Shown piece after piece: positions 1,914-5,236 of a stretch of DNA of 5,236 nucleotides. The notes under the pieces are model-generated. The model ran no database searches, was not told the origin of the DNA, and saw only the letters and a program-made list of their open reading frames with translations. Both the position numbers and the translations under genes were made by a program. How positions within the stretch are numbered: the stretch's first letter is position 1; every line of letters begins with the position of its first letter. Source of the DNA: JAFGIT01 sp016929465 [NCBI: Candidatus Coatesbacteria bacterium] (GTDB lineage Bacteria > B130-G9); NCBI GenBank assembly GCA_016929465.1, contig JAFGIT010000253.1:1-5236 (forward strand). Reading direction: 5' to 3'.

Positions 1914-1914
1914 T
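1909..1914 (+). promoter_or_regulatory. Consensus -10 box TATAAT upstream of the TTG-start gene
   Basis: A perfect TATAAT lies at 1909-1914, overlapping the TAA stop of the 39-residue ORF. No recognisable TTGACA-like element is present 16-18 bases upstream, so it may be a weak or activator-dependent promoter. Transcription would begin near 1920-1922, leaving a roughly 23-base leader that contains the Shine-Dalgarno sequence at 1930-1936. This would exclude a TTG start at 1914. Confidence 0.4.
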
Positions 1915-1929
1915 TGTATGATCCTCGCC

Positions 1930-1936
1930 GGGAGGA
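1930..1936 (+). promoter_or_regulatory. Strong Shine-Dalgarno GGGAGGA fixing a TTG start at 1944
   Basis: GGGAGGA ends 7 bases before TTG at 1944-1946. No other start codon in that frame has such a site. The earlier TTG at 1914 has none and overlaps the -10 box. This therefore sets the start of the downstream gene ten codons inside the maximal open frame. Confidence 0.65.
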
Positions 1937-1943
1937 ATATACA

Positions 1944-2351
1944 TTGAGCAAGAGGATTTTGATCGCTGTTTCATCGAGACAGCCTTGGATGTCAATGACA
2001 TATCGCCTTGCCAGAAAAGCAGGTTTCTCACCCATCCTCTGCAGATGTGCCGAAGCTGCCAGGTCGGAATGCGATATATTCATCCGTATCGGGATCCCGC
2101 CGTCCATCGTCCTTGTGGATGGAGCATTGGCTACCGAGGAACGGGCGTCAGTTAGAGAATTGTGCGAGCTCTGTCGAGTCAAACTCATCGTGATTCCGGA
2201 CAGGATCGCGCCTGAGCTTGAGCGCCAGATCAGAGATGTTCTGGAGCAAGAACTGATACTCGAGAATTCGGTTCTCGGAAGATATCCCTCAAGGGACCTT
2301 ACTACAGCCTCTAATAGCATACAAATGGAAGATATCGCCAGATTGACTTGA
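1944..2351 (+). CDS. Uncharacterised 135-residue protein, degenerate receiver-like fold
   Basis: The TTG start at 1944 is chosen for its strong ribosome binding site. The stop is TGA at 2349-2351. The pattern resembles a CheY-type receiver: strand KRILIAV (residues 3-9), helix ending LARKAGF (22-28), an EAA helix start at 37-39, strand PPSIVLVDG (52-60) ending in Asp59, a helix rich in Glu/Arg (64-78), strand KLIVIP (80-85), and a charged helix (89-107). Asp59 lies where the phosphoacceptor would be. However, the acidic pair after strand 1 is replaced by SSRQ, the Thr/Ser after strand 4 is Pro, and the strand-5 Lys region is missing or unrecognisable. If the fold is right, this is a pseudo-receiver that probably does not phosphorylate normally. 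No DNA-binding output domain, signal peptide or membrane segment is visible. It could equally be another small Rossmann-like protein. The overlapping minus-strand frames are Ser-rich shadows. Confidence 0.65.
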   Translation: MSKRILIAVSSRQPWMSMTYRLARKAGFSPILCRCAEAARSECDIFIRIGIPPSIVLVDGALATEERASVRELCELCRVKLIVIPDRIAPELERQIRDVLEQELILENSVLGRYPSRDLTTASNSIQMEDIARLT

Positions 2352-2392: not shown

Positions 2393-5014
2393 TCAGGCCA
2401 TACTTAGGAATTGCGCAAAGAGGACCACCGTGTTGTAGGTTGCGTGTGCCGCTACAGGTGCTAAAAGCAGGCCAGTTCGCTCGAAGCTGATAGCGGCTGC
2501 CAGACCGAGCGCAAAGACCGGTAGCGCGGAGATGGGCGGATGGACCATCGCAAAGATCGCTGCGCTCCCCAGGATTGCCACTGAGGGCTTCAGGGAACGC
2601 CGCATGCCTTTGAAGAGAAGACCGCGAAAGATATATTCCTCGAAAAGCGGCGCGGCCACCACCAAGAGGAGCGCGATCCACCATAGGTCGCTGTAGCAGG
2701 TTCGTGATAAAAGATCGAGCGTTTCGCTTTTAAGCTCCTTTAGCGGCTCGATGAATTCGATAAGGTTCAGATAGAGCACGCCAAAGACTGCCGCGAGCAG
2801 CCCCCAGAAGAGACCTGTTCTGAGGGATTTTTCCCAGCTAACCGACGAATCGACCGACGGCTTTAGGCCAATTGTTTCCCATAGGTCGGGGACCTTGAGA
2901 TGCCGGAATATCAGGATGGAGCACAAGGCGACGACGCCCGCGGCAACTGCGTAGGCAATCAGCATGAAGCTGCGAACGCCTCTATTGCTGGACCAATAGA
3001 AAGGAAGAAAAAGCAGGCCCTGAAGGGCGAAGAAGGCGTAGCTCACGACAACACCATCAATCACACCGATCCTGTGTGGAGGATTCTGCGTGGGATCGAG
3101 GATATATGGAAGATGTCCCATCGCGTGCTGCCACACGGCAAGGCAAAGCAATACGCCAAAGCAGAGAACGACAACGCTCTGGTATGCCGTGGGGGCGTAA
3201 ATGCCATACATATACATCCCGCCAAGCGTCATTAGGAGCATTGAAAGCGCAGGTGAAGCTCTCCATTGAAGATCTCGCTCAAATGGGTCCGTCATCAGGA
3301 CGGCAAGTCCGCTTGCCATAACTGAATAGGTCGCGATCCCCGCCAGGGCGAATGCTGAGCTCCAGACTGCAGTTGTCCAGGAGGATGGAAGAATCGCGAA
3401 GGCGATGGCCAGCATAACCAGGCCATACGATAGCGCAAGAATCGCCCACATCTTTGTTTTCTGAACGATGGCATCCTTCAGGCGAATTGGAAAGGTGAAT
3501 AGCAGCCAAAGAGACTCCGCCTCTGCCGCAACGATCATAGTCGAAGAAAGAATGGTGATGAGCAATCCCATGAAGAAGGCCATAGCGGCTGCATGCCGGA
3601 AGTCGCCTGAGATCTCTCTAGGCAAGAGCGGCCACATCAGCAGTCGAAGGGCGATCACCATCGCGGGGAGGACAGTCATCTGTATCAAAATAGCCCTGTT
3701 GCTGACCAACAGCCTGAGGTCCTTGCCGATGAACCCACCCATCGATCTCAGGTCCGCTTTTGCGTCAGAGGCACGATCTCGCTTCCCGGTATATGGTCCC
3801 GGTTCCCTTACCAGGCCGTCGCGAATCAGTTTTGAGGACGCTTCTATTGAGACGAAGGCAAATAGCACAACGCTGATCACGGCAAGAACAATGACTGGCA
3901 ATGCCAGCGAGCCTCCAGCGCACAAGAGGACCGGCAGCGAAGTCGGCAGCCACGGTACAATGCCCGGGAGATAGTCCACGACCGCGAGCAGACGGCTCGC
4001 CTGCCCAGGCATCGCGCCAGCAAAGGAGAGCAGAAGGAATATGACCCCGAATACAGAAAAGACAGCCTGGAAGTTCCTGATTGCCTTTCTCGATAGATTC
4101 TTCCGAAGCCAGGTCTCTATGATTGTCCGGCATGAGGCACAAAGGACCGCGACATACGCCGCACTAACAAGCGCGATCGGGACCCCCATCAATCCATAGC
4201 CGGAGGACCAGAAGCAAACAAAGAAAAAGGGCAGAATGAATGCCCAGGAGAATATGTTGAATAGGGAATATTCAATGAGCTTCGCTCCTATGAGAACTTG
4301 CGGAGAGACAGGAAATGAAGAGAGCCATTGCATGTCCCAGTCGAGCTTCCCAAGGTCCATATTGCGGATCCCGAGATCGCTGAGTACCGCGCCAGCAAAT
4401 AGGAGCAAAGAGATGAAACCCAGGCAGAGGATCATCCTATCCTCGTTCTCTTCAGCGGGCCAGCTCTGAACACTCGGCCAAAGACAGTGGCGTATCCTCA
4501 GTTTGATCAGCTCAAACCGACCTAATCCATCCTCTTTGATGGAGGAAAGCATCTCATCAATGGGCAATCTCTGTCTCTGCAGGTAACCCATGATGCGGCG
4601 ACTGTCCTTTGAAAGGGCATCACGTAGTCTCTTCTCGGATTCTGCGCTCAATGTTTCTCCAGAATTGGTCCCTGGATTTGACAGAAGAGTGTCTATCTCC
4701 CTCAAACCGCGCACGGTAATGGGGAAATTACCTCTGGCGGAGATTGCCTCCATATCGAGGTCATCCGAGACGGAGGGAAGGAATCGGGACCATAAATTGA
4801 CGTAGTTCATCAGGAAAATGAATCCAAACAGGGCCACTGCAATGAGGCTGCGTTTCCGCTTTCTCGGTGTCGCCTCTCGACGGGTCTGGACGCCAGCCTT
4901 ATCGCCGAGAGCCATCTTCTTCAGCCATTTGGATGAGAAGCGGTTAATTCTCCCTCTGATAGCGGCTCTCGAGACAATCAGCAGGGCCCGACGGCTGGAA
5001 GGTGGGCTATGCAT
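2393..5014 (-). CDS. ABC-2-type permease fused to CPBP intramembrane protease
   Basis: This is an 873-residue inner-membrane protein. The basic cytoplasmic N-terminus (RKRKR at 51-55) leads to TM1 (about 56-76), followed by a large hydrophilic, probably external, domain (about 80-192) as in NatB-type exporters. Permease half 1 spans about 194-390 and half 2 about 435-630, each with several hydrophobic segments. Both carry a matching coupling-helix motif: WLSSFPVSPQ from 230 and LLFTFPIRLK from 504, each ending in Lys (245 and 519). A CPBP/Abi domain occupies about 650-873 with all catalytic motifs: EEYIFR (792-797), FAMVH (821-825) and HATYN (857-861). Active CPBP members are Rce1-like glutamate proteases. 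The ATG at 5014 overlaps the ATPase stop as TGATG, which supports this start despite a weak ribosome binding site; Met34 is a poorer alternative. The ATPase encoded just upstream presumably powers it. The substrate is unknown. I recall permease-CPBP fusions, but cannot confirm this architecture without a search. Confidence 0.88.
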   Translation of the reverse strand: MHSPPSSRRALLIVSRAAIRGRINRFSSKWLKKMALGDKAGVQTRREATPRKRKRSLIAVALFGFIFLMNYVNLWSRFLPSVSDDLDMEAISARGNFPITVRGLREIDTLLSNPGTNSGETLSAESEKRLRDALSKDSRRIMGYLQRQRLPIDEMLSSIKEDGLGRFELIKLRIRHCLWPSVQSWPAEENEDRMILCLGFISLLLFAGAVLSDLGIRNMDLGKLDWDMQWLSSFPVSPQVLIGAKLIEYSLFNIFSWAFILPFFFVCFWSSGYGLMGVPIALVSAAYVAVLCASCRTIIETWLRKNLSRKAIRNFQAVFSVFGVIFLLLSFAGAMPGQASRLLAVVDYLPGIVPWLPTSLPVLLCAGGSLALPVIVLAVISVVLFAFVSIEASSKLIRDGLVREPGPYTGKRDRASDAKADLRSMGGFIGKDLRLLVSNRAILIQMTVLPAMVIALRLLMWPLLPREISGDFRHAAAMAFFMGLLITILSSTMIVAAEAESLWLLFTFPIRLKDAIVQKTKMWAILALSYGLVMLAIAFAILPSSWTTAVWSSAFALAGIATYSVMASGLAVLMTDPFERDLQWRASPALSMLLMTLGGMYMYGIYAPTAYQSVVVLCFGVLLCLAVWQHAMGHLPYILDPTQNPPHRIGVIDGVVVSYAFFALQGLLFLPFYWSSNRGVRSFMLIAYAVAAGVVALCSILIFRHLKVPDLWETIGLKPSVDSSVSWEKSLRTGLFWGLLAAVFGVLYLNLIEFIEPLKELKSETLDLLSRTCYSDLWWIALLLVVAAPLFEEYIFRGLLFKGMRRSLKPSVAILGSAAIFAMVHPPISALPVFALGLAAAISFERTGLLLAPVAAHATYNTVVLFAQFLSMA

Positions 5015-5236
5015 CAGCTCTTCGAGTTAATGGACTCATCGTTTGGTGTGGTCTTGGTTTCCTGCGTGAGCGAGAAGAATATCTCCTCCAGCGAGCTACC
5101 CTCGGAGACCTCACCTCGAAGCTCATCCAGGCGCCCGATGCCGGCGAGCTTGCCCTTGAACATCACCGCGACGCGGTCGCATATTTTCTCGGCCTGGTCA
5201 AGTAGGTGAGTGCTGAAAAAGACCGAATCGCCCTTA
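5014..5236 (-). CDS. ABC transporter ATP-binding protein, C-terminal fragment
   Basis: The last 73 codons of an ABC ATPase enter from the right window edge, so the 5' part is outside. The visible protein begins KGDSVFFSTHLLDQAEK. Its STH holds the H-loop (switch) histidine, followed by ICDRVAVMFKGKLAGIG and the closing SLEEIFFSLT, the usual ending of NatA/CcmA-type exporter ATPases. A hydrophilic tail of about 14 residues follows. Walker A, signature and Walker B motifs would lie beyond the edge. Its TGA (5016-5014) shares a base with the ATG of the permease-protease gene, so the two are almost certainly co-transcribed and translationally coupled. It would sit on the cytoplasmic face, hydrolysing ATP to drive the fused permease. 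Confidence 0.93.
   Translation of the reverse strand, partial: KGDSVFFSTHLLDQAEKICDRVAVMFKGKLAGIGRLDELRGEVSEGSSLEEIFFSLTQETKTTPNDESINSKS

Follow-up and report, generated by a model that had tools for sequence, protein, structure and literature searches.

It is near certain that a gene of the Candidatus Coatesbacteria bacterium JAFGIT01 sp016929465 encodes two ABC-2 permease halves of an ATP-binding cassette (ABC) exporter and a C-terminal CPBP intramembrane protease domain in a single chain. The gene, hereafter the fusion (2393..5014, minus strand; 873 amino acids (aa), ATG to stop), lies in a window of 5,236 bases that is an entire contig of a genome of 3.19 Mb (423 contigs, 86% complete), from a phylum represented by only four genomes in the genome collection. 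The plus-strand reading of the same interval contains 32 stops. Directly upstream, the C-terminal 73 aa of a partner ABC ATPase are encoded at 5014..5235 (minus strand), its 5' end being lost at the contig end, and the ATPase stop TGA and the fusion ATG share one base (TGATG junction). We favour a reading of the fusion as an EcsAB/Eep-like unit on one chain, which would cut membrane peptides and extrude the products, and we rate its chances as about even.

The two permease halves

To compare the fusion with its relatives, species genomes of the GTDB were scanned with a three-sequence alignment and the best 80 of 130 relatives were kept; the scan relied on two short patterns, and all counts derived from it are lower bounds. 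A scan of genome contigs with the single fusion protein found no relatives. Among the best 80, the fusion was present in 39 loci (L028-L066), while the other 41 (L067-L107) matched at the CPBP end only and stand outside the fusion counts. Two copies cut at contig ends (L059, L061) were left out of the resulting 38-row alignment; L034, which begins at a contig end and may have lost its first residues, was kept.

Permease half 1 spans residues 1-400 (3815..5014; like all features of the fusion given below, on the minus strand) and comprises an N-terminal helix, the first transmembrane helix, an insert and the other helices, and half 2 spans residues 425-642 (3089..3742). An earlier reading made from the sequence alone had proposed that the two share a gap-free coupling-helix match, with L231/L505, F234/F508, P235/P509, V236/I510, I242/I516 and K245/K519 lining up. 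This register (offset 274) proved to be real. In the profile of the 38 homologues, the pair 227/501 ranked first among 40,198 pairs of 20-residue windows, within coupling-helix regions at residues 226-245 (4280..4339) and 500-519 (3458..3517); its score was reached by 15 of 300 column shuffles, and the reversed profile gave 8.80 versus 10.07. Alignment of half against half by hhalign (P = 0.075 and 0.05) also had its top match at offset 274. The profile self-alignment that had been proposed as a check thus returned the claimed register on top, but with borderline significance, and taken alone the half-half sequence match is suggestive only.

Stand-alone permeases of the family PF16949 (20 rows with 19 distinct ORFs (open reading frames), from 24 loci) were matched by the permease part with a profile E value of 1.7e-18, each half falling on its counterpart (1.1e-7 and 7.1e-12). 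The CPBP part did not match the same rows, and reversed controls were negative. The two halves of the PF16949 permeases matched each other in the same register (P = 8.1e-4 and 6.3e-4 over 95 columns and 19 rows; reversed, 0.17). Permeases of the NF041647 type were weakly related to the permease part (P = 3.2e-4; half 2 alone, 4.4e-4; reversed, 0.3 and 0.18). Compared directly with the Pfam model PF16949, the fusion protein remained without a match up to E = 1, and only 2 of the 38 fusions matched this model at E up to 0.01.

An AlphaFold2 model built on the 38 homologues reached a predicted local confidence (pLDDT) of 85.7 and a predicted template-modelling score (pTM) of 0.84; a single-sequence model (pLDDT 43) was set aside. 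As read off the helix list of the model, the coupling-helix motif of each half sits in the loop that joins long helices two and three, so that the predicted fold has the two six-helix halves, with coupling helices at this position, of an ABC-2 (type V) exporter. In VIA-align, individual chains of a mycobacterial efflux pump (8k1m-p) aligned with model residues 2-642 (Z 11.8-12.3; 402-446 residues aligned, root-mean-square deviation 6.4-7.2, 12% identity; for 8k1o, Z 12.3 over residues 3-641). Residues 426-640 aligned to NosY (Z 12.6), CcmB (Z 12.5) and ABCG5, and residues 625-873 to SpdC (6u0o_A, Z 12.3); for helical proteins, Z values below about 13 can reflect shared helix arrangement. Sequence searches of the PDB (phmmer and a profile search) returned nothing relevant. 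The structure prediction supports two permease halves, the permease part aligning with a solved chain, and together the PF16949 match, the AlphaFold2 model and the VIA-align fold match settle the question in favour of two ABC-2 halves.

Loop sides were assigned from the ABC-2 pattern with the N terminus inside, and charges were then counted. Positive segments at residues 1-56, 398-439 and 798-810 were consistent with a cytoplasmic location, and from the assigned sides the end of the helix carrying the EExxxR motif is probably cytoplasmic as well. The poorly conserved insert that separates long helices one and two of half 1 (residues 94-187; 4454..4735) was taken as extracytoplasmic by analogy with this pattern. 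Some ABC transmembrane domains and APH-1 share a topology according to ECOD (PMC6588880); comparison of the CPBP domain with either half gave no sequence signal for a third copy of the six-helix fold.

The CPBP domain and the spread of the fusion

The CPBP domain (PF02517, Rce1-like) occupies residues 650-870 (2405..3067), with support from hidden Markov models and the SpdC fold match. The fusion protein scored 68.8 bits against PF02517 over residues 776-863, for a gathering score of 22.4, and the three motifs described by the sequence-only reading are intact: EExxxR at residues 792-797 (2624..2641), FxxxH at 821-825 (2540..2554) and HxxxN at 857-861 (2432..2446). Each of the seven motif residues (E792, E793, R797, F821, H825, H857, N861) is invariant in all 38 aligned copies. 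Of 29 invariant columns in this alignment, 16 lie in the CPBP core, every motif residue among them; with M1, whose invariance is a product of start assignment, and four search-pattern columns removed, the core holds 12 of 24. One of the search patterns, AAP[LV]FEE[YF], contains the EE of the first motif and is carried by 36 of the 39 fusion loci, so that EE was partly selected for. R797, F821, H825, H857 and N861 lie outside both patterns, and their conservation is therefore not circular. The three fusion loci without that pattern (L029, L034, L037) still have EExxxR, and two loci from other searches that also lack it (L026, L137) have the CPBP motifs. The invariant core columns, which include every motif residue, argue for a working protease.

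All three motifs were found in 38 of the 39 loci, the copy in L061 being cut ahead of the third. An ATPase-like ORF with Walker patterns stands directly upstream of the fusion in 35 loci; the other four (L029, L034, L058, L059) start at contig ends, L029 with a partial ATPase. The ATPase tail in the window matches ABC ATPase models (best TIGR01188, 5.6e-7), and 60 of its residues are 68% identical to the ATPase of a related genome; this short tail had no Pfam ABC match. The partner ATPase expected of an ABC-2 (type V) exporter is thus represented by the tail in the window and by the upstream ORFs of the relatives. Contrary to what had been suggested, the channel is not wholly self-contained, its ATPase being encoded separately.

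The hosts of the fusion include Planctomycetota, Verrucomicrobiota, Candidatus Lindowbacteria, Bdellovibrionota, Myxococcales, Candidatus Riflebacteria, Steroidobacteraceae and many Burkholderiales; two loci (L028 and L031) probably represent genes also recorded as L003 and L004. A further genome (G161) holds a more distant version of 868 aa, again with an ATPase of its own. On a plasmid of Sphingomonas parapaucimobilis, another copy follows an 'ABC transporter ATP-binding protein' and is annotated in RefSeq solely as 'CPBP family intramembrane glutamic endopeptidase'; a gene so named is here a transporter subunit. Of the genomes searched around the window, 4 of 386 carry the fusion, the source genome included, as does 1 of 45 in the phylum of G161. 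With 39 loci in several phyla but so few of these genomes, the fusion is widespread yet rare in the sampled genomes.

Two further observations concern individual copies. In a genome of the source genome's own family (G001), a 62-aa ORF (L008 1489-1677, minus strand) is 65% identical to fusion residues 831-870; it is probably a decayed remnant of the fusion gene, and no longer match to the fusion was found in that genome. In a Verrucomicrobial genome of the Chthoniobacteraceae (L036 5722-9114, plus strand), the protein continues for about 290 residues past the CPBP domain, and this extension had no Pfam match.

Gene neighbours and possible roles

In 15 of the 39 loci, all of them Oxalobacteraceae, the gene immediately ahead of that for the ATPase encodes a signal peptidase I (PF10502, E 4.2e-45 in L041). 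The signal peptidase stop overlaps the first possible ATPase start in eight of these and is 30-75 bases away in the other seven. In the tree of CPBP domains, the loci with signal peptidase fall into two branches of the Pseudomonadota group, mixed with L038 and L039, which are without it. Ten genomes searched with this signal peptidase contained two to four matching places each, some of which are pieces of one gene. In the six of these genomes with the adjacent gene (L041, L042, L048, L051, L053, L055) the next best match was 34-38% identical, and the adjacent signal peptidase therefore looks like a separate paralogue. In the Bdellovibrionaceae genome of L043, three tandem signal-peptidase-like places were seen (G395:C90:96684-98781), one with an in-frame TAG.

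Antisense ORFs made the clustering of neighbouring genes noisy at GC-rich loci; nothing stood out but the ATPase and, among Oxalobacteraceae, the signal peptidase, and other loci had other neighbours. Eight neighbour genes, one from each of eight loci, were scanned against Pfam; they included a member of the penicillin-amidase family, encoded downstream of the fusion in L050, and none was a bacteriocin gene. Downstream of the fusion in Roseateles (L057 8093-8665, plus strand) lies a gene for a PEP-CTERM protein (PF07589), and a metagenome-assembled genome has a downstream ORF of equal length and near-identical start (L058 2571-3143, plus strand). On the other side of the fusion in the window, lepA (translation factor EF4) ends at 1444 on the plus strand. 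The interval between them holds a 145-aa ORF (1914-2351, plus strand), which overlaps a 173-aa ORF on the opposite strand and had no Pfam match and no NCBIfam match above cut-off. Promoter, terminator, tRNA and Rfam scans of the window gave nothing relevant to the fusion (10 terminator-like sites versus 4.5 expected).

In the reading that we prefer, the fusion would be the membrane subunit of a type V (ABC-2) exporter, its single chain holding both transmembrane halves. The ATPase, encoded separately, would dock as two copies on the two coupling helices in an A2B layout like that of the predicted EcsA2B. The C-terminal CPBP domain would act as a glutamic intramembrane endopeptidase on a hydrophobic membrane peptide, candidate substrates being a spent signal peptide, a lipoprotein leader or an anchor segment. 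The ABC module may then extract or export the fragment, or keep the protease site clear. In Gram-positive bacteria, genetic links connect intramembrane proteases with exporters of the EcsAB type (PMC7157817, PMC7478892), and in Escherichia coli RseP cleaves signal peptides once signal peptidase has freed them (PMC5381017). The signal peptidase neighbour offers a concrete candidate substrate class. Cutting followed by export would fit these analogies and one gene-neighbour context.

Several observations weigh against this reading. The signal peptidase neighbour is confined to Oxalobacteraceae and was not seen at the other 24 loci, several of which offer only short upstream stretches; in Massilia terrae L038 the upstream sequence is long enough, yet the gene is absent. 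In the fusion protein of the window, the insert assumed to lie outside carries 16 K+R and 12 D+E (family means 5.7 and 6.3), which lends no support to this placement. With regard to the fold, MATE transporters also align to half 2 (Z 8.6-9.7), and Foldseek found no match at E < 0.001, the best being 8k1p_A (E 0.22, probability 0.99). Eep and RasP are not CPBP proteases, and EcsB had no profile similarity to the fusion permease, a weak negative given that only two EcsB sequences were compared. Finally, SpdC is described as a histidine kinase partner, and the available part of that paper reports no proteolysis (PMC5854430).

A narrower version, which we regard as possible but doubtful, would make the CPBP domain a signal-peptide-peptidase-like enzyme that forms part of an ABC exporter. 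It would cut leftover signal peptides within the membrane (in Oxalobacteraceae, those from the neighbouring signal peptidase I) and hand them straight to the exporter, and ABC-2 exporters would have been joined to CPBP proteases on at least two independent occasions.

Self-protection or drug efflux is an unlikely explanation. The ABC part would here expel antimicrobial peptides or drugs, while the CPBP domain would degrade peptides or confer Abi-type immunity. The closest solved chain over both halves is indeed an efflux pump, the CPBP name refers to CaaX proteases and the processing of bacteriocins (PMC11980579), and annotation assigns Abi domains to self-immunity (PMC5854430). However, fold similarity is uninformative on substrate, and the eight scanned neighbours, although a small sample, included no bacteriocin gene.

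We give little credence to C-terminal sorting, in which the CPBP domain would act like myxosortase or MrtJ on a C-terminal anchor and the ABC module would pass the protein or anchor on. For myxosortase, itself a CPBP enzyme, cleavage of a C-terminal tag has been reported (PMC11980579), the PEP-CTERM gene of Roseateles and its counterpart in L058 suit such a role, and the CPBP domain of the members matches the models MrtJ (38/38) and MrtS (34/38) at E up to 0.01. The fusion protein nevertheless stays below the curated cut-offs of both (36.6 versus 75 and 18.7 versus 130), and no C-terminal-tag protein stood out in the noisy neighbour clustering. It is likewise improbable that the CPBP domain cuts nothing and serves the exporter in a structural or regulatory capacity. 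SpdC, the CPBP match in the fold search, may be a parallel, as it binds the kinase WalK (PMC5854430), but all seven motif residues are invariant in 38 of 38 copies, five of them outside the search patterns.

Comparison with known systems

Single chains of the mycobacterial efflux pump (8k1m/n/o/p) cover both halves of the fusion (model residues 2-642), but with 509-530 residues they are too short to hold a CPBP domain as well. SpdC, whose CPBP/Abi fold resembles fusion residues 625-873, is a 248-residue chain solved with SagB and is not an ABC exporter. The stand-alone PF16949 (ABC_tran_2) permeases share the two-half layout; they differ in lacking a CPBP match (0 of 20) and have open frames of 533-595 aa, with one of 792. 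The premise that ABC-2 exporters normally need two permease subunits is thus weaker than had been assumed, since one chain holds both halves in PF16949, in 8k1m-p and, by prediction, in EcsB.

The fusion of an ABC-2 permease and a CPBP domain is as a kind already catalogued: the NCBIfam family NF041647 (ABC transporter permease subunit/CPBP intramembrane protease) has, like the fusion, a permease followed by CPBP on one chain. The layout described here differs, as the NF041647 model has 636 positions, about 410 of them ahead of the CPBP part, which is too short for two halves plus insert; the fusion protein scored 61.3 bits against it versus a cut-off of 435, in the CPBP part only. In the source genome, two contigs (G000:C247 and C244) have neighbouring ORF pairs matching the CPBP part of NF041647. 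Full-text literature searches showed no paper on an ABC-2/CPBP fusion among the matches listed.

A tree of 89 CPBP cores over 104 columns, for which the software cautioned about the small number of columns and about long branches, placed 39 fusion cores (the 38 of the alignment and that of G161) in one cluster with support 98/89. The very long branch of a stand-alone protein (L002) intrudes in this cluster, such that the fusion label needs two changes, and no bootstrap tree had the fusion cores as one group. The CPBP domain of an NF041647 protein (L014, itself a long branch) fell outside the cluster. This tree suggests, without proving, two independent fusions of ABC-2 and CPBP, one in the layout described here and the other in NF041647; the weak relation between the permeases of the two types slightly lowers the odds of this.

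The closest functional analogy is offered by EcsAB or PptAB with Eep or RasP, in which a one-chain two-half permease with a predicted ATPase pair works with an intramembrane protease (PMC7157817, PMC7478892, PMC11466899). EcsB is such a permease by prediction, within a predicted EcsA2B complex whose authors doubt details of the prediction (PMC11466899). None of the 38 members matched the EcsB model (PF05975) at E up to 0.01, and the source genome gave no EcsB match. In Staphylococcus aureus, the production and release of linear peptides from lipoprotein leaders requires EcsAB as well as Eep, a putative membrane metalloprotease (PMC7157817), and in Bacillus subtilis EcsAB is described as a regulator of RasP (PMC7478892). 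A covalent fusion turns the link between protease and exporter into a physical one that can be tested with a single protein. The proteases of the EcsAB systems are separately encoded and of the S2P type; by analogy, exporter and intramembrane protease would seem to share the work in the same way in the fusion, on one chain and with a protease of a different family.

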